DNA of 64,000 nt from Acidobacteriota bacterium. GTDB lineage: Bacteria > Acidobacteriota > Thermoanaerobaculia > Multivoradales > Multivoraceae. The first letter of the stretch is position 1; every line of letters begins with the position of its first letter. A model generated the notes under the pieces. It saw only the letters and a list, made by a program, of their open reading frames with translations. It did no database searches and was not told the DNA's origin. A program made the position numbers and the translations under genes. Positions 48,539 to 57,659 of the stretch are shown here, one piece after another. The stretch lies in NCBI GenBank assembly GCA_029263415.1, contig JAJCXN010000001.1:1-64000 (forward strand). The letters run 5' to 3'.

Positions 48539-48768
48539 GATGTGTTAGGGGCACTGCTCTCTTCGTCGAAGTGATGATCGCGAATCAACGGTCAAGCGCA
48601 GATTCTGTCCCATGCAAGCAGGAACGGTGACGCTTCCGCTACGGTCTTTGATCGAGGACTTAGATAGTCGTTTTCTGGGCCTCGAAGTGTTCCGAGGCCG
48701 ATGCTAGAGTCAGCGGTCGCGCTCTCATTTTGCGCCCACTTTCTAAGAACCTCAGCAGGACTCAGACT

Positions 48769-50187
48769 TTGTCAGAACAATCCATGGATCTCGTAGTCAT
48801 TGGCAGCGGCCCGGGCGGCTATGTTGCTGCGATCCGCGCTGCTCAACTTGGCCTGCGCACTGCCTTGGTCGAGAAGGATCCGCTCTTTGGCGGCACTTGC
48901 TTACACCGCGGTTGCATTCCCACCAAGGCTCTCTTGCACACCGCGTCGGTTTTCGAAGGCGTCCTCAAGGCTGCCGATTTTGGTGTCGAGACCACGGGAG
49001 TGCCGCGGTTCGATGGCGCCAAGGCGCTGGACTACCGGCAGGGCGTCATCGACAAGAATGCAAAAGGTGTTGCCTATCTGCTGAAGAAGAACGGCGTTGA
49101 AACGGTCCACGGCCGAGGAACGCTGGACTCCGCTCAACGACGGGTCAACGTGGTTGGCCCCGATGGCGCTGAGAGCTATCTCAACACTGAGCACGTGCTC
49201 ATTGCTACCGGCTCGGTGCCGCGCGAGCTGCCGTTCGCGAAGACCAACGGCACCACCATCATCAACAGCGACCATGCGCTTCAGATGCAGACGGTGCCCG
49301 AGTCGGTGGTGGTGCTCGGTGCCGGCGCGGTCGGTTGCGAATTCGCCTCGATCTACGCGTCTCTCGGCGCACAGGTGACGTTGGTTGAGTTGTTGCCGGC
49401 CGTGTTGCCGCTCGAGGATCAGGACGCTCGAGACGAGGTGGCGCGCGCGTTCAAGCGACGAGGAATCAACGTTATGGTTGGCACTCAACTCGACTCGGTG
49501 GTCGAGGAGAATGGCGGCGTTCGTGTTGTCCTCATTCAGAAGGGCGCTGGGAGTGAGCCAGTGTCGGTCACCGCGTCGCAGCTGCTGGTCGCTGTTGGTC
49601 GGGTGCCGGTGACCAGCGGTCTCGGTCTCGAACCCATTGGCGTCACCCTCGACGATGGCGGGTTTGTTGCCGTTGATGAATGGATGGAGACAACTTCGTC
49701 GGGCGTCTACGCCATTGGCGACGTGGTCAGGACGCCATGGCTAGCGCACGTTGCGTCGGCTGAGGGCATCCTGGTTGCTGAACGAATCGCTCAAGCCGAG
49801 TGCGACCCGATCGACTATGACTTGGTGCCGTCGTGCACCTACTGTGAACCAGAGGTTGCGAGCGTTGGGCTGAGCGAAGAGCAGGCTCGCGCTCGTGGTT
49901 ATGACGTTGGAGTCGGGAAGTTCCCATTCTCCGCCTTGGGCAAGGCGTCAATTCTGGGTAAGACCGGTGGTTTCGTCAAAGTGGTTCGAGAGACCCGTTA
50001 CGATCAGTTGCTTGGTGTGCACATCGTAGGGCCGCATGCGACCGATCTGATTGCCGAGGCGTGTGTGGCGCTGCGCATTGAGTCGACCACAGAAGAGCTG
50101 TTTCGAACCATGCACGCACACCCCACGCTCTCAGAAGCCATGTCGGAAGCAGCGCAAGTCGCTTTGGGACGCGCGCTCCACGCGTAG
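48769..50187 (+). CDS. lpdA: Dihydrolipoyl dehydrogenase (E3)
   Basis: Re-oxidises dihydrolipoyl groups with NAD+; 472 residues. The FAD motif is MDLVVIGSGPGGYVAAIRAAQLG, the redox disulfide Cys44/Cys49 lies in GGTCLHRGCIPTK, the NAD motif is VVVLGAGAVGCEFASIYASLG, and the C-terminal His-Glu pair is in HAHPTLSEAM. The TTG at 48769 with AGGA upstream gives the usual MSEQ-like start; an ATG at 48784 is an alternative. E2 follows 120 bases later, lipB after that. E1 is not in the window. Confidence 0.96.
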   Translation: MSEQSMDLVVIGSGPGGYVAAIRAAQLGLRTALVEKDPLFGGTCLHRGCIPTKALLHTASVFEGVLKAADFGVETTGVPRFDGAKALDYRQGVIDKNAKGVAYLLKKNGVETVHGRGTLDSAQRRVNVVGPDGAESYLNTEHVLIATGSVPRELPFAKTNGTTIINSDHALQMQTVPESVVVLGAGAVGCEFASIYASLGAQVTLVELLPAVLPLEDQDARDEVARAFKRRGINVMVGTQLDSVVEENGGVRVVLIQKGAGSEPVSVTASQLLVAVGRVPVTSGLGLEPIGVTLDDGGFVAVDEWMETTSSGVYAIGDVVRTPWLAHVASAEGILVAERIAQAECDPIDYDLVPSCTYCEPEVASVGLSEEQARARGYDVGVGKFPFSALGKASILGKTGGFVKVVRETRYDQLLGVHIVGPHATDLIAEACVALRIESTTEELFRTMHAHPTLSEAMSEAAQVALGRALHA

Positions 50188-50307
50188 ACGCGTCCACACT
50201 CCACTCCTTCTGTCTTGGCCGTCCGTCCCAGATCACTTCTTCCCACAAACCGTTCCTGCTCTCTCGCAAACCTGCCACTAGAGAGCCAATCGGAGTACCA
50301 GTAACTC

Positions 50308-51777
50308 ATGCCGACCGAAATCATCATGCCGCAAATGGGCGAGTCCATCGCCGAAGGCACCATCACCAAGTGGCTTGTGGGGCTGGGCCAACCGGTTGAA
50401 CGCGATCAGCCGCTGCTCGAAATCTCTACCGACAAAGTAGATGCCGAGATTCCCAGCCCGGCAAGCGGCGTGCTGTCGCAGGTCTTGTTTGCCGAAGGCG
50501 ACACGGTGGAAGTGGACACTGTGATCGGAATGATCGGAGCGGAGGCGGCTGAGCCGGCTGCAGCGCCGGCCGCGTCCACCATGGGTGAGGTTCCATCAGC
50601 CAGCGATGCGAGCCCTCAGGCGGTCGGGGGCGCCACCGTGACCCTAGCGGAGCCGAGTGCTCCAGGCGACCAGACCCTCGAGGAGCGTGTTCGAACTAGC
50701 TCCAGCCCGGTCGTGCGCAAGATCGCCAAGGAACGCGGTGTTGATATCTCTAGTGTTCCAGGGACCGGGATTCACGGTCGTGTGACCAAGCGCGACATTG
50801 TCCAGTACTTGGAACAAGGAGCTGTGCCCTCCGCGAGCGAAGCTGCACCAGTGTCCGCGACACCCGCATCGGCGCCGGCAGCACCCCAAGAAGCCGCAGC
50901 GAGCACTGCAAGCTCCAGGGAAAAGGACAGCGCGTCGCTAGTGACCACCGAGACCACCATTGAGAGCCATCCGGTTACGCCAAAGGCACCGGAGCGCGCG
51001 CCCTCTAGGGGCAATGATGAATTGAGCTTCTCGGTGCCTGCGTACGGCGCGAGTGAGAACGTCAAGATCGAGTCGATGTCGCGCGTGCGCCGCTTGACGG
51101 CAGCACACATGCTCTACTCTCGTCAGACCTCAGCGCACGTGGCCACGGTATTCGAGATCGACATGAGCAGCATCGTGACTGCTCGTAGCCGAGCCAAGGC
51201 GAAGTTCCAAGAGCGCGTTGGGACCAAGCTGACTTACATGCCGTTCATTTTCAAGGCGGTGGCTGACGGTCTGCAAAGCTACCCGAAGTTCAATGCTTCC
51301 CTAGATGGTACCGATATCGTCTACAAGCGGGACATTAACCTTGGCATGGCTGTGGCAGTCGATTGGGGACTGCTGGTTCCTGTGATTCCCAACGCTGACC
51401 AGCTCAACTTGGTTGGCCTCGCGCGCACCGCAAACGATCTTGCAGATCGCGCGCGCACCAAGAAGCTCAGCCCAGACGAGCTGCAACGCGGCACGTTCAC
51501 GGTGACCAATCCAGGTGTTTTTGGCAGCCTCTATGGCATTCCGATCATCAACCAACCCCAAGTCGCGATCCTGTGTGTCGGTGCCATCGAGAAGCGCCCA
51601 GTGGTGATGACCGACGCTGATGGCAACGATAGTTTGGCGATTCGCACCATGTGTCACTTCTGCTTGAGCTACGACCATCGGTTGATCGACGGTGCGGATG
51701 CTGAGAAGTTCATGAATCGACTGAAGCGCACGCTGGTCGACTCCACCTGGGACGAACTCGATCCGTTCTTGGGTTGA
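50308..51777 (+). CDS. 2-oxo acid dehydrogenase E2 (dihydrolipoyl acyltransferase)
   Basis: Core acyltransferase of a 2-oxo acid dehydrogenase complex, 489 residues. One lipoyl domain (1-78) carries the modified Lys43 in EISTDKVDAEIPSP. An Ala/Pro-rich linker follows. The peripheral subunit-binding domain is at about 130-165 (SPVVRKIAKERGVDISSVPGTGIHGRVTKRD). A second Ala/Ser-rich linker leads to the catalytic domain (about 250-489), which ends with CHFCLSYDHRLIDGADA (active His457, Asp461). Whether the substrate is 2-oxoglutarate, branched-chain or pyruvate cannot be told safely; the MGESIAEGT opening is common in the 2-oxoglutarate and branched-chain types. Confidence 0.93.
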   Translation: MPTEIIMPQMGESIAEGTITKWLVGLGQPVERDQPLLEISTDKVDAEIPSPASGVLSQVLFAEGDTVEVDTVIGMIGAEAAEPAAAPAASTMGEVPSASDASPQAVGGATVTLAEPSAPGDQTLEERVRTSSSPVVRKIAKERGVDISSVPGTGIHGRVTKRDIVQYLEQGAVPSASEAAPVSATPASAPAAPQEAAASTASSREKDSASLVTTETTIESHPVTPKAPERAPSRGNDELSFSVPAYGASENVKIESMSRVRRLTAAHMLYSRQTSAHVATVFEIDMSSIVTARSRAKAKFQERVGTKLTYMPFIFKAVADGLQSYPKFNASLDGTDIVYKRDINLGMAVAVDWGLLVPVIPNADQLNLVGLARTANDLADRARTKKLSPDELQRGTFTVTNPGVFGSLYGIPIINQPQVAILCVGAIEKRPVVMTDADGNDSLAIRTMCHFCLSYDHRLIDGADAEKFMNRLKRTLVDSTWDELDPFLG

Positions 51778-51851
51778 TTGGGCTCAAGGGGCCGAAGATA
51801 GTTCGTTGTGCGGAGGTCGAGCCTGAGTGCTTGAGGCCTTAAGATGTGGCC

Positions 51852-52655
51852 ATGAGCGTCAGCGCGTCAATCACCACTGAATCGAGCAACACTGGATCCA
51901 GCACGTCTGGATCCGGCAGCCATCGATCGACTCAAACCGAGGTGGTCGGAGTGCGTCGAGAGCTTGAAGTAATCCGGCTGGGACGGGTCGGTTACGCCGA
52001 TGCGTTCGCGATGCAAGTGGAGCGACGCGATGCCATCCTTCGTGGCGATGCAACCGATGCACTCTTCTTGTTGGAGCATTCGCCGGTGTTCACACTTGGC
52101 CGCAATGCTGCAGAGAAAGACATTCTTGCCGGGGCTGACTGGTTGAGGCAGAACGGTGTCGAGGTGCATGAGAGTGATCGTGGTGGCCAGGTGACGTACC
52201 ATGGTCCCGGTCAGCTGGTGGGCTATCCCGTCCTCAACTTGAGTCCGGATCGCCGCGACGTGCGCCGCTACGTGCGCGACTTGCAGGCCATGATTGTTCA
52301 GGTGCTCAAGGTGTGGGGAATCGGGGCTCGGGGTGGAGAAGGGGACCGCATTGGTGTGTGGACCAGCGAGGAACAGCCGCGAAAGATCGCGTCGATCGGC
52401 ATCCACTTGAAGCGCTGGGTGACAACCCACGGATTTGCCCTCAATGTGGCGACCGATCTCGCGCACTTTCAAGGCATCGTAGCCTGCGGTCTGCACAACG
52501 TGCAGATGGTCACAATGGAGGAGTTGGTGGACCAGGGTCCGTCACTCGACCGGGTCTCTGATGCGGTAGCTGAAGCGTTTTGCTCGGTGTTCGACTATCC
52601 TCTGCCCGCGCCGACTCTCGACATCAGTGCGAACCCCTCGGAACCGAAGAGTTGA
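51852..52655 (+). CDS. lipB: Octanoyl-[ACP]:protein N-octanoyltransferase
   Basis: Transfers octanoate from ACP to the lipoyl domains of E2 and GcvH; 267 residues from the ATG at 51852, or 269 from the GTG at 51846. The first 40 residues are Ser/Thr/Gly-rich and extra. The core has LLEHSPVFTLGRNA, ESDRGGQVTYHGPGQLVGYPVLNL, the catalytic Lys in RKIASIGIHLKRW (about 178) and the catalytic Cys in GIVACGLHNV (about 214). It sits directly after an E2 gene, which is its likely substrate. The next gene starts inside its stop (TTGA). Confidence 0.95.
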   Translation: MSVSASITTESSNTGSSTSGSGSHRSTQTEVVGVRRELEVIRLGRVGYADAFAMQVERRDAILRGDATDALFLLEHSPVFTLGRNAAEKDILAGADWLRQNGVEVHESDRGGQVTYHGPGQLVGYPVLNLSPDRRDVRRYVRDLQAMIVQVLKVWGIGARGGEGDRIGVWTSEEQPRKIASIGIHLKRWVTTHGFALNVATDLAHFQGIVACGLHNVQMVTMEELVDQGPSLDRVSDAVAEAFCSVFDYPLPAPTLDISANPSEPKS

Positions 52656-53629
52656 CCGGGGATGGGGTTGGGCTGAGAGTCGGTCTGTCGGCGGCGATTC
52701 TTGCAGTCACAGACGAGCAGCCGCGTGTGGTCACGGTCGGTCGCTCTGAATGGGGGCGCTCAGACAAGGCGGCTCTGCCGTTTGGCATCCTCGATGCCTT
52801 CGCTCACCGCACGCTCGAACTGGGTTTACGCTCGTGGGTACAGGAGCTGGCCGAGCTAGTGCTTGGCTACACCGAACAACTCTACACCTTCGGGGACCGT
52901 GATCGTGTTGATCGTCCGCTGCTGACGGCGGCACCGTCTGAAGATGAGGAACGAGTGATCTCGGTGGCTTACCTTGCGCTGACTCGCGAAGCGGAGAGTG
53001 AGGGCGGCGACGGCGTCGACTGGCGGGATATCTATCGTTTCTTGCCTTGGGAAGACGGACGTGGCGAGCAACCTTCGCGCTCGCGTCAGCTGGCTCTTGA
53101 CGCGATTGGTCGATGGTGTAGGAAGCCGCGGGCAAGAGCGGAACGGGAGCGACGAGAAGAACGAGCCCAATTCGCTTTCGGCTTGGATCGAGAAGTGTGG
53201 GACTCGGAGAAGGTCCTGGAGCGCTACGAGCTCTTGTTCGAAGCAGGATTGGTTGCTGAGTCTGATCCGGATGGGTCGTCCTGGCCGGATGGTGGCTTTA
53301 GTTCGCGACCCATGGCTGCAGATCACCGCCGCATCCTTGCGACCGCGCTCGGACGCCTGCGGGCCAAGATCAAGTACCGCCCGGTCATCTTCGAGTTGAT
53401 GCCCGAGCAGTTCACGTTGTTTGAACTGCAGCGCACGGTTGAGGCGCTTGCCGGGCTCAGGCTGCACAAGCAGAATTTCCGTCGACTGATCGATCGAGGT
53501 GGTCTGGTAGAGCTCACTGGTGGGGTCAACGCTCAGACCGGTGGCCGTCCGGCCAAGCTCTACGCGTTTCGCCGGGACGTGCTGCGCGAGCGCCGTGCTC
53601 CTGGTGTGGGCCTACCTGGGCAGCGCTGA
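52652..53629 (+). CDS. NrtR-like Nudix-fold transcriptional regulator of NAD metabolism
   Basis: A 325-residue regulator from a TTG overlapping the lipB stop; the open frame extends 24 codons upstream. The N-terminal Nudix-like part has EQLYTFGDRDRVDRP and RVISVAYLALT, a hallmark of NrtR. The Nudix box is degenerate: the spot for REXXEE reads QELAEL, so catalysis is unlikely and ligand sensing (ADP-ribose in known NrtRs) is inferred. The C-terminal winged helix is very typical: LGRLRAKIKYRPVIFELMPEQFTLFELQRTVEALAGLRLHKQNFRRLID, then GGRPAKLYAFR. It lies right before nadA-nadB-nadC, with a two-site promoter between. Confidence 0.9.
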   Translation: MTGDGVGLRVGLSAAILAVTDEQPRVVTVGRSEWGRSDKAALPFGILDAFAHRTLELGLRSWVQELAELVLGYTEQLYTFGDRDRVDRPLLTAAPSEDEERVISVAYLALTREAESEGGDGVDWRDIYRFLPWEDGRGEQPSRSRQLALDAIGRWCRKPRARAERERREERAQFAFGLDREVWDSEKVLERYELLFEAGLVAESDPDGSSWPDGGFSSRPMAADHRRILATALGRLRAKIKYRPVIFELMPEQFTLFELQRTVEALAGLRLHKQNFRRLIDRGGLVELTGGVNAQTGGRPAKLYAFRRDVLRERRAPGVGLPGQR

Positions 53630-53670
53630 AACGCTCCGCGAAAGACTTGGCAGATTGTGCAAGATGTTGG

Positions 53671-53699
53671 TTGACAGGGTTTATGCTCAGGAATAGCAT
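53671..53699 (+). promoter_or_regulatory. nadA promoter (sigma-70 type)
   Basis: A perfect -35 TTGACA at 53671-53676, a 17-base spacer and a -10 TAGCAT at 53694-53699 (four of six matches to TATAAT). It lies 42 bases after the regulator stop and about 115 bases before the nadA start at 53814. The first palindrome covers the spacer and the -10. Confidence 0.75.
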
Positions 53700-53701
53700 T
53701 A
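53680..53701. promoter_or_regulatory. Candidate NrtR operator 1 (nadA promoter)
   Basis: A palindrome of the form ATGCT-N7-AGCAT with TTT before and TA after, spanning 53680-53701. It overlaps the promoter spacer and -10 box, where a bound protein would block RNA polymerase. Its flanks match site 2 in reverse orientation, with 18 of 22 positions identical. Confidence 0.65.
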
Positions 53702-53749
53702 GTCCAAAGGTAGAGTTCAGCGCTCACCGAGGATGAATTTTTCGCAGAG

Positions 53750-53771
53750 TAATGCTTAAACTGAGCATAAA
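53750..53771. promoter_or_regulatory. Candidate NrtR operator 2 (nadA leader)
   Basis: A second copy of the ATGCT-N7-AGCAT palindrome, in opposite orientation, at 53750-53771. It lies downstream of the promoter, in the untranslated leader. The centres of the two sites are about 69 bases apart, which allows either roadblock repression or looping. Confidence 0.65.
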
Positions 53772-53813
53772 GCAATGTGCTCGCCCGTAGAGGTCTCTGA
53801 AAGGGGAACTTCG

Positions 53814-54941
53814 ATGTCTCTCGATAACGGTTCAATCAAGCTTCCGATCTCGACCGCCGCAGTTGGGGTGAATACCCAGACCAGCGGTTCCGTTCACAAT
53901 CTCATCTTTGACGATGAGGTCAAACGCCGCACCGATCCCATTTGGCAGCGGGTCCAGGACGTGATTCCCGCCATTGAGTGGTCTGTGCACGCCCCGTACA
54001 TCGATGCCATCAACGAGTGGAAGAAGAAGCGCAATGCGGTGATTCTGGCGCACAACTACCAGACCCCAGAGATCTTCCACGGAGTCGCTGACATCACTGG
54101 TGACTCCCTGGCCCTCGCGCGACTCGCCTGCGATGTTGAAGCCGATGTCATCGTGCTATGTGGTGTTCACTTCATGGCTGAGACCGCCAAACTCATGAAT
54201 CCTGCGAAGACGGTGTTGATCCCTGACGCTCGCGCCGGGTGCTCACTTGCAGACTCAATCACTGGCGCAGACATTCGGCTCCTTCGCCAGAAGTACCCTG
54301 ATGTGCCAGTCGTCACCTACGTCAACACCTCGGCCGAAGTGAAGGCTGAGTCCGATATCTGTTGCACCTCTGGCAACGCGGTTGAGGTGGTTGAGTCGCT
54401 GGGCGTGGATCGGGTACTGGCGATTCCAGATGAGTACTTGGCTAAGTGGATTGCGACCCAAACGGAGGTCGAGATTCTGACCTGGAAGGGCCACTGCGAA
54501 GTGCACGAGCGCTTCACGGCGGAGGAGTTGCGCCGCTACCGCGAAGGCGATGAGAACCTGGTGATCATCGCTCATCCTGAGTGCCCGCCTGATGTGCTCG
54601 ATGAGGCTGACTTCGTCGGTTCTACGGCAGCAATGATTGGCTATGTCGGTGACAAGAAGCCTCAGCGGGTGGTCATGGTTACCGAGTGTTCGATGAGCGA
54701 CAACGTTGCCGTTGAACATCCCACTGTCGACTTTGTCAGGCCGTGCAATCTGTGCCCGCACATGAAACGCATCACCCTGCCCAAGATTCTCGACGCGTTG
54801 ATCGAGATGAAGGACGAGGTTCTGCTCGAGCCGAGCACCGCTGATCGCGCGCGCCAAGCGGTGGAACGTATGCTGGCGGTGACGCCGACCAACAAAGCGG
54901 TCAAGGTCGATCGCGGTCGGACCGCGGCGGTGGTGGCCTGA
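53814..54941 (+). CDS. nadA: Quinolinate synthase
   Basis: Condenses iminoaspartate with dihydroxyacetone phosphate to quinolinate, using a [4Fe-4S] cluster; 375 residues from the ATG at 53814, which follows AAGGGGAAC; an ATG at 53775 also opens the frame. Conserved parts: [29 protein letters not shown]; the cluster Cys residues in [17 protein letters not shown] (about 116), [16 protein letters not shown] (about 183) and [13 protein letters not shown] (about 311-314). It heads nadA-nadB-nadC, the complete aspartate route to nicotinate mononucleotide. Confidence 0.97.
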
Positions 54942-54945
54942 ACCG

Positions 54946-56772
54946 ATGATCGACCCTGCACTAGGCAAGACGCCGACCGCGGCCTTGCTGGATCAGCTGT
55001 TCCGCGAACAGCTTGCATTTGAGAAGAGCTCTGAGTCAGTCGATCGAGTCGATCATGCGGACTTGATCATCGTCGGCAGTGGGATCGCTGGGTTGTCGGC
55101 CGCGATCACTGCGGCACGGCACCTCGACGCCGGACAGCGGGTTGTGCTGATCACCAAAACTGAGCTTGGCGACGGTGGCTCGAGTAGGTGGGCGCAAGGC
55201 GGAATCGCCGCTGCTGTTGGTGGCGTCGACGATCAAGTTGAGCATGCAGAAGACACATTGCGAGTGGGGCGCGAGCTCTGCGAGCCTGAGATTGTCGAGC
55301 ACCTGACCTCGCTGGGAGACGAGGCGGTCGCACGCTTGGTGAGCCTAGGGGTTCGCTTCGATGTTGATGCCGATGGTGCGTTCTTGCTTGGCCGTGAAGG
55401 CGGGCATCATCGTCGTCGCGTTCTGCACGCTGAGGGCGACGCCACCGGCAAAGAGATCATGCGCGCCTTGCGCGTTACGTTCACCGAGATGGTCAAAGAT
55501 CACCCGCGGGTTGTGCTCGAAGAGAACTTCTTCGCTCAAGACCTACTGATTGTCGACGATGAAACTTTTGGTGGTCGTCACTGTGCTGGGGTGTTCGGCT
55601 CGAGAACGGCGAACGGCGAGCGAGCCGAGACTGTTGCGTGGCTCGCGCCGCGCGTTGTTCTCGCGACCGGCGGCATGGGACAGCTATTCCAGTACACCAC
55701 CAATCCGCAGGAAGTCACTGGCGACGGCATCGCCATGGCCGCGCGCGCTGGCGCCTTGTTGGCTGACATGGAGATGATCCAGTTTCACCCGACGACTTTG
55801 GCAGTGGGCTCAGAACTCAACCAGACCGGCAAGGCGATGCTGCTGACCGAGGCGCTGCGCGGCGAGGGCGCACTGCTGCTCGACGAACAGGGTCGTCGGT
55901 TCATGAAGGCGGTGCACGAGCTGGCTGAGCTTGCTCCTCGAGACGTGGTCGCGCGGACCTTGTGGCAAAGGTCTGCGCGCGGTGAGCGGAGTTTCTTAGA
56001 CCTGCGCCCGGTCCAAGACGCCTTAGTGGAAAGCGGTAGCCACCTTGCCCGGCGCTTCCCAACGGCTTACAAGCAGTGCAAGTCCGTGGGCCTAGATCCT
56101 TTGAGCGAGCCGGTTCCGATCACTCCAGCAGCGCACTACACCATGGGTGGTGTGTGGACTGATTCTCAAGGGCACACCTCACTCGAAGGCCTATTGGCGA
56201 TTGGCGAGGTGGCATCGAGCGGAGTGCATGGGGCGAATCGGCTGGCGAGCAATTCTTTGCTCGAAGGCGCGGTGTTCGGTCACGAGTTCACCCTAAGAGT
56301 GCTACACGAGATGTCGAGTGTGCGTTTGATTTCGGTCGAAGACCGGGAGGCGGTCGGTTTCAATTCTCGTTGGCAACTTGGTGATCGACCGGTTGCGGCT
56401 GCGCTTGAGACACATACCCCGGGGCTGGCAGACCACTCGTTGCGGGATAAGATCCGCCGGCGGATGTGGCAGGGTGCGGGACTCGTCCGCGACGCAGATG
56501 CCTTGCGTGAACTCGACCGAGAACTCATGATTCTCCAACGCTTTCGGCCCAACTCTGGCCCCGAGGAGCGCAACCTGCTGTTACTCGGACGCTTGCTCTG
56601 CAACGCGGCGCTGGCGCGCACCGAAAGTCGCGGCGGTCACTATCGGTCGGACTTTCCTGCAAGTGATCCCAAGCAAGCGCGGCGCAACATCGCCTCGGCC
56701 TCCCGACTGCTCGGTGAAGACACCGTGACGCCGTTGCAAGTGGAGATGCCTGCGGTTTCGGGGTTGCGATGA
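54946..56772 (+). CDS. nadB: L-aspartate oxidase
   Basis: FAD enzyme producing iminoaspartate for NadA; 608 residues against about 540 for E. coli. About 35 residues before the FAD motif (LIIVGSGIAGLSAAITAARHL, about 40-60) are extra. The substrate-side motif GDGGSSRWAQGGIAAAVG and the later QFHPTTLAVG, LTEALRGEGALLLDEQG and AAHYTMGGVWTDSQGHTSLEGLLAIGEVASSGVHGANRLASNSLLE are as in NadB. This last segment distinguishes it, with context, from succinate dehydrogenase. nadC overlaps its stop as ATGA. Confidence 0.97.
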   Translation: MIDPALGKTPTAALLDQLFREQLAFEKSSESVDRVDHADLIIVGSGIAGLSAAITAARHLDAGQRVVLITKTELGDGGSSRWAQGGIAAAVGGVDDQVEHAEDTLRVGRELCEPEIVEHLTSLGDEAVARLVSLGVRFDVDADGAFLLGREGGHHRRRVLHAEGDATGKEIMRALRVTFTEMVKDHPRVVLEENFFAQDLLIVDDETFGGRHCAGVFGSRTANGERAETVAWLAPRVVLATGGMGQLFQYTTNPQEVTGDGIAMAARAGALLADMEMIQFHPTTLAVGSELNQTGKAMLLTEALRGEGALLLDEQGRRFMKAVHELAELAPRDVVARTLWQRSARGERSFLDLRPVQDALVESGSHLARRFPTAYKQCKSVGLDPLSEPVPITPAAHYTMGGVWTDSQGHTSLEGLLAIGEVASSGVHGANRLASNSLLEGAVFGHEFTLRVLHEMSSVRLISVEDREAVGFNSRWQLGDRPVAAALETHTPGLADHSLRDKIRRRMWQGAGLVRDADALRELDRELMILQRFRPNSGPEERNLLLLGRLLCNAALARTESRGGHYRSDFPASDPKQARRNIASASRLLGEDTVTPLQVEMPAVSGLR

Positions 56773-57659
56773 GTACGGTTTCCCGCGGCAACGAGGCGCC
56801 AACCGAGCGCTTGTTGAGTTCACCACCACGGTTCCTTTGGGAACCGATGATTCGGAGAGCTTTTGAAGAAGATCTGGGCACCGCTGGCGATCTGACGACT
56901 CAGTCGATCGTTCCTCAGACGGCCACCGCCACCGCCCGCATTCGTTCGCGGGCTGCTGGGATCGTTGCGGGCGTCGAGGTTGCTGCCGGCACCTTCAAGT
57001 TGTATGACCCAGAGCTGAGCGTTCACATTCTGGTGGCCGACGGTGACCGGATCGCTGCTCAGCAAGTGCTGCTTGAACTAGAGGGCTCGGCGAGATCGAT
57101 CTTGATCGCTGAGCGCACCGCTCTAAACCTGCTCGGCCGCTTGTGCGGCATCGCCTCCGCCACCGATCGGCTCGCCACCTTGATTGCAGGCACCCGTGCA
57201 CAAGTGGTCTGCACTCGCAAAACCACTCCTGGCCTCCGCGCCCTTGAGAAGTACGCAGTGCGCTGCGGTGGCGGCGGCAATCACCGCTTCGGGCTGGACG
57301 ACGCGGTGTTGATCAAAGACAACCACATCGCCGTTGCCGGGGGAGTGGCAGAAGCGATCCGCAGTGCCCGCTCGCACGTTGGGCATCTGGTCAAGATCGA
57401 AGTCGAGGTAGACACCCTGGATCAGCTCGAAACAGCACTCGAGAGCGGGGCTGAAGCAGTACTCCTAGACAACATGCCACCCGAGACTTTGCGCGTTGCA
57501 GTCGAGCGGTGCCGCGGCAAGGTGCTCACCGAGGCGTCCGGTGGAATCAACGCTTCGACGATTCGGGCAGTCGCTGAAAGTGGCGTCGACTTGATTTCTG
57601 TCGGGGCCTTGACTCACAGCGTCAAGGTCCTTGACCTTGGCCTAGATATCGATCTCTGA
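56769..57659 (+). CDS. nadC: Nicotinate-nucleotide pyrophosphorylase (carboxylating)
   Basis: Quinolinate phosphoribosyltransferase, 296 residues, makes nicotinate mononucleotide. The substrate-binding pattern is visible as VVCTRKTTPGLRALEKYAVRCGGGGNHRFGLDDAVLIKDNHI (about 155-196). Then come IEVEVDTLDQLETAL and LTEASGGINASTIRAVAESGVDLISVGALTHS. It ends the three-gene NAD operon, 20 bases before the convergent MFS gene. Confidence 0.97.
   Translation: MSTVSRGNEAPTERLLSSPPRFLWEPMIRRAFEEDLGTAGDLTTQSIVPQTATATARIRSRAAGIVAGVEVAAGTFKLYDPELSVHILVADGDRIAAQQVLLELEGSARSILIAERTALNLLGRLCGIASATDRLATLIAGTRAQVVCTRKTTPGLRALEKYAVRCGGGGNHRFGLDDAVLIKDNHIAVAGGVAEAIRSARSHVGHLVKIEVEVDTLDQLETALESGAEAVLLDNMPPETLRVAVERCRGKVLTEASGGINASTIRAVAESGVDLISVGALTHSVKVLDLGLDIDL

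Follow-up and report, generated by a model that had tools for sequence, protein, structure and literature searches.

A predicted NadQ-type repressor and paired palindromic operators at the nadABC locus of an Acidobacteriota bacterium

Introduction

NadQ was named in 2016 (Leyn et al.), and its winged helix, similar to that of NrtR, is remarked upon in passages of PMC5343134. The operator consensus given there is ttATRCTCannntGAGYATaa, and the core targets are nadABC in alphaproteobacteria and in several beta- and gammaproteobacteria. Solved structures are available for NadQ of Agrobacterium tumefaciens (7q91–7q94); their PDB titles name complexes with ATP, NAD and DNA, those of 7q92 and 7q93 carrying ATP/NAD. 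The title of the paper on these structures (J Struct Biol 2022), as cited in the reference lists of PMC11452294 and PMC12421817, contains the term 'ATP-responsive'.

Two further groups are related by architecture. NrtR (Shewanella 3gz5/3gz6, M. smegmatis) acts in the same pathway. AraR of Bacteroides (5bs6) combines a Nudix-like part with a winged helix, and its structure 5deq was solved with L-arabinose.

The window described here is the whole stretch of DNA analysed, 64 kb in length. It holds a regulatory gene followed by a set of genes for de novo NAD synthesis.

Genes of the locus

Coordinates are given in Table 1. The TGA stop of lipB overlaps TTG 52652, the likely start of nadQ; the longest nadQ open reading frame opens at 52580 and encodes 349 aa. 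ATG 53814, placed behind the ribosome site aaagggg, is probably the start of nadA, rather than 53775. The order nadA-nadB-nadC downstream of the regulator, as given in a preliminary description of this DNA, agrees with the family models (Pfam NadA, NCBIfam equivalog, TIGR00551, TIGR00078).

Positions 48730–53629 form one gene string of an E3-type dehydrogenase, a 2-oxoacid dehydrogenase E2, lipB and nadQ. This placement of nadQ after lipB distinguishes the locus from the proteobacterial NadQ regulon. Within the order, lipB lies inside the examined stretch at 23 of 30 nadQ loci, the present one counted. The string may tie the NAD regulator to expression of lipoate and 2-oxoacid dehydrogenase functions.

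Table 1. Features of the nadQ-nadABC locus, positions numbered from the first letter of the window
Feature	Position	Strand	Evidence
lipB (octanoyltransferase)	51846..52655	+	Pfam LplA-B_cat, E 9.5e-44
nadQ, almost certainly a NadQ (COG4111) regulator, 325 aa from TTG 52652	52652..53629	+	phmmer, AlphaFold model, NrtR_WHD 2.7e-19
-35 element TTGACA	53671..53676	+	Promoter search; in the order, at most 1 mismatch at 16–18 bases in 33/35
Predicted NadQ operator O1, ATGCTCAGGAATAGCAT	53683..53699	+	Overlaps the -10 and the greater part of the spacer; palindrome and consensus match, conservation
-10 element TAGCAT, right half of O1	53694..53699	+	T at that O1 position in 33/35 promoters of the order
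Predicted NadQ operator O2, ATGCTTAAACTGAGCAT	53752..53768	+	Opposite orientation to O1; lies downstream of it, centres 69 bp apart
nadA, quinolinate synthase	53814..54941	+	Pfam NadA 8e-111; NCBIfam equivalog above cut-off
nadB, L-aspartate oxidase	54946..56772	+	TIGR00551, 480.4 bits (cut-off 452.75)
nadC, nicotinate-nucleotide pyrophosphorylase (carboxylating)	56769..57659	+	TIGR00078, 331.5 bits (cut-off 198.4)

Identity of the regulator

Among solved structures the regulator is most similar to A. tumefaciens NadQ 7q91 (phmmer E 1.2e-79). The similarity is near full length, covering residues 34–347 of the 349-aa long open reading frame. Shewanella NrtR 3gz5 is matched far more weakly (E 8.3e-14), with 41.5 bits from the winged helix versus 11.3 bits from the N-terminal part. 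Pfam matches are confined to the C-terminus (NrtR_WHD and AraR_C); the NrtR-like winged helix located there scores 69.5 bits (cut-off 27, E 2.7e-19). The AlphaFold model was built from 28 NadQ sequences (pLDDT 81.6, pTM 0.83). Its top 14 fold matches include the native, ATP-, NAD- and DNA-bound forms of A. tumefaciens NadQ, 7q91–7q94 (best E 1.6e-31, 48% identity), and AraR, NrtR and Nudix proteins follow after NadQ. The N-terminal part is Nudix-like in its modelled fold, with a match to the Nudix domain of NrtR 3gz8 that is weaker than that to NadQ, and lacks a typical Nudix sequence. The architecture of AraR is shared at 18% identity.

The preliminary description took the regulator for an NrtR-type protein. 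The NrtR-like winged helix bears this out as far as the C-terminal domain is concerned; the family assignment does not hold, and on sequence and model the protein is almost certainly NadQ (COG4111). A classical NrtR, with an ADP-ribose-sensing Nudix domain and a lineage-specific operator, is very unlikely. That reading would suit the NrtR_WHD winged helix and the overall fold, similar to NrtR 3gz6, as well as the targeting of nadABC by mycobacterial NrtR mentioned in passages of PMC6800001. It was rejected because the chain as a whole is much closer to the NadQ structures, the NCBIfam NtrR equivalog model gives 70 bits where the cut-off is 400, and no Pfam Nudix domain is matched in the regulator at E 0.001. 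The operator fits the NadQ consensus, unlike the mycobacterial NrtR operator GTTTTCGA-N7-TCGAAAAC given in the same passages. The regulator shares with NrtR a homologous C-terminal winged helix, a similar overall fold and the pathway, and differs in N-terminal sequence, expected ligand and operator sequence. With the proteobacterial NadQ of Leyn et al. (2016) and of 7q91–7q94 it shares family membership over nearly the whole length, the winged helix and, in the model, the Nudix-like N-terminal fold.

Four genomes of the order (G037, G040, G043, G057) contain, besides NadQ, open frames of 235–267 codons that match only the C-terminal winged-helix part of NadQ. By sequence these are perhaps NrtR- or AraR-like paralogues.

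Palindromes and promoter

Two exact copies of ATGCT-N7-AGCAT, O1 and O2, are present in the 64 kb window, and no other match is found there even with 1 mismatch. The window count alone is unremarkable (2 palindromes versus 1.51 expected with 1 mismatch allowed; at least 2 in 48/100 shuffles); what is unusual is that a single intergenic stretch of 184 bases contains two exact copies. The copies have opposite orientations, agree at 18 of 22 positions when one is inverted, and are contained in a 25-nt inverted repeat of 80% complementarity. Their centres are 69 bp apart. The only promoter-like site in 52500–54000 is TTGACA with a 17-base spacer and TAGCAT (10/12 positions; shuffle mean 0.3). The search thus reproduced the sites, spacing and identity reported in the preliminary description, together with its promoter overlapped by the first palindrome at the spacer and -10. 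Upstream of nadQ the window has no palindrome, even with 1 mismatch, and hence no hint of autoregulation.

The two sites differ from the 21-base NadQ consensus ttATRCTCannntGAGYATaa at 2 and 3 positions. The right half of O1 deviates from it, reading TAGCAT instead of GAGCAT, which may weaken NadQ binding. An earlier view of the operator as an undescribed version has to be given up, since the consensus published in 2016 (passages of PMC5343134) fits both sites. Operator consensus and nadABC targets are thus shared with the proteobacterial regulon as described in those passages.

In the 6.9 Mb genome the consensus is matched with at most 3 mismatches at 3 places (O1, O2 and one within a 452-aa open reading frame), versus 0 for the reversed control. 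At that stringency the regulon would comprise nadABC alone, as nothing else of a wider NadQ regulon was found in the genome. The exact pattern ATGCT-N7-AGCAT occurs at 3 places, versus 2 for the reversed control pattern. The third exact palindrome, ATGCTCACCGTGAGCAT, lies at L083:1501-1517 (G000:C23:35576-35592), within the 452-aa open reading frame just mentioned, and is probably due to chance; exact pattern and consensus thus pick out the same 3 places. Extra palindromes at two loci of relatives (L187, L188) have no NAD gene found alongside: the L187 site lies within an open reading frame with a DUF4412 match, and the two flanking frames tested at L188 match no NAD-gene family.

Conservation within the order

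Sixty genomes of the order were compared, the present one and 59 relatives. nadA is present in 35/60, and NadQ is matched at E 2.2e-48 or better in 35/60, a count that leaves out a weak partial match in G016 and includes a few genomes where the match is partial or split. Both genes occur in 34 genomes and neither in 24; G028 has nadQ only and G048 nadA only (concordant, 58/60). Of the 24 genomes in which both are absent, 21 belong to one genus, so few independent events underlie the co-occurrence. That genus (g2; G001, G004–G023) is placed in the same family as the present genome. All 21 species sampled from it are without a nadA match and without a full nadQ match, and 19/21 are more than 90% complete; they may require a precursor of NAD or make it by a different route.

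Every one of the order's 35 nadA-bearing genomes has one or more sites within 1 mismatch before that gene (32, and 3 added later). Among the 32 upstream stretches, at most 1 mismatch allowed, at least one site is found in 32/32 and two sites in 27/32; exact sites number at least one in 26/32 and two in 16/32. As controls, the reversed pattern was found in 0/32 of these stretches, the sequence inside nadA gave 0/32, and shuffles averaged 0.50. The three further nadA genes each have two sites within 1 mismatch, and the reversed pattern is found in 0/3. The palindromes are therefore conserved before the nad genes of relatives; their lack of conservation there had been named beforehand as grounds for abandoning the proposal.

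Paired sites occur in 32/35 promoters of the order, the second 57–91 bp downstream. The analysis anchored on O1 gave O2 in 29/35, to which L172 (pair 59 apart, its second site having been taken as O1), L152 and L162 were added; the last two have exact sites 57 and 60 apart, with the second at or past the aligned NadA start. In the other 3 of 35 (L145, L168, L169) no second site within 1 mismatch is found.

nadQ and nadA lie on different contigs in 12 genomes. Three of these were set aside: G059, where nadA is split and its first part lies beside nadQ, and G035 and G055, where a contig break is possible. In the remaining nine (G026, G029, G030, G034, G036, G037, G041, G043, G047) the nadA loci, about 1.5 kb upstream included, are without nadQ, and each keeps at least one site within 1 mismatch before nadA. 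By sequence comparison, the palindromes are attached to nadA rather than to nadQ.

Promoter architecture

TTGACA within 1 mismatch is found in 33/35 promoters of the order when O1 is picked by the best -35, a choice that favours the -35 count; when O1 is picked by the site alone, the count is 31/32. The hexamer TAG[C/T/G]AT is present in O1 of 31/35 promoters. At site position 12, O1 has T in 33/35, completing a -10-like hexamer, and O2 has G in 29/29. The distance from O1 to O2 is 57–91 bp, with 19/29 at 57–62. These patterns suggest that O1 sacrifices one operator base for a working -10, and that O2 retains the fuller operator and adds affinity. A fixed two-operator design can be put forward tentatively, at somewhat below even probability: the O1 palindrome would double as the -10, and a better O2, 57–91 bp downstream, would cooperate by looping or as a roadblock, giving tight repression with promoter strength kept.

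Distribution in other lineages

NadQ at E 1e-30 or better was found in 24/247 genomes drawn from the same phylum, the present one included; its distribution is thus patchy. By 16S, located in 1/11 named genomes tried, identity over the aligned part is 78.8% to E. coli and 76.7% to Bradyrhizobium. Those two share 76.4% with each other, a comparable distance, so the host is close to neither.

Named NadQ loci were represented by the best 80 of 164. Sixty-seven of these were scored; 12 without a nadA match were left out, and L010 was dropped, as its nadA aligns only from residue 66, though an exact site is present. Among the 67 scored loci from the best 80 of 164, at least one exact site is found in 62, at least two in 44, and at least one within 1 mismatch in 64. 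The reversed pattern occurs in the same 67 loci 0 times exactly and once within 1 mismatch; control stretches inside nadA gave 0/67 exact, but 8/67 within 1 mismatch. Paired operators are likewise frequent, and a similar design appears to recur in distant NadQ-carrying lineages. Among the sites listed for these loci (best 80 of 164), spacings are 22–23, 27, 32–34, 51–53, 57–67 and once 83 bases; a spacing of 34 or 64 is common among named alphaproteobacterial loci, compared with 69 bp here and 57–91 in the order. Five named loci (L005, L019, L020, L026, L041) have sites 22–23 bases apart, about two helical turns, unlike the pairs at 57–91 bp. L020 has three NadQ sites in succession.

Discussion

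Sequence comparison makes it very probable that the nadABC promoter is bound at two palindromic operators, and repressed, by the NadQ-type regulator encoded upstream. Control of nadABC by the neighbouring regulator through the palindromes, the central prediction of the preliminary description, thus receives comparative support from 35/35 genomes of the order. O1 covers most of the spacer between -35 and -10 and the -10 hexamer, so NadQ bound there should exclude RNA polymerase. The centre of O2 lies about 54 bases past the predicted transcription start, and NadQ at this site would strengthen repression as a roadblock or through contact between two NadQ. By analogy with the A. tumefaciens complexes, DNA binding would be released or strengthened by adenine nucleotides; ATP and NAD are the expected ligands. 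ADP-ribose is not expected as ligand, because the regulator is a NadQ with the described operator.

It is highly improbable that some other regulator recognises the palindromes and that NadQ acts elsewhere. Their persistence with nadA where nadQ is not adjacent would accord with it; set against this, the palindrome is the published NadQ motif (passages of PMC5343134) and lies within 1 mismatch before nadA in 64/67 scored named NadQ loci (best 80 of 164). A chance origin of the palindromes at this promoter is next to inconceivable: the exact pattern, at 3 places versus 2 for the control, is not enriched genome-wide, and this explanation is refuted by the conservation in 35/35 genomes with nadA, the reversed pattern being found in 0/32 and 0/3.

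Regulator and operator are almost certainly an already described pair, and the finding is real, well conserved and mostly ordinary. The name NrtR for this NadQ is likely an annotation error that would lead to the wrong ligand being tested; its correction matters for this reason. New here is a further lineage whose de novo NAD synthesis is predicted to be under the described repressor. New also are the conserved paired-operator promoter, the operators that stay with nadA, and the tendency of regulator and pathway to co-occur.
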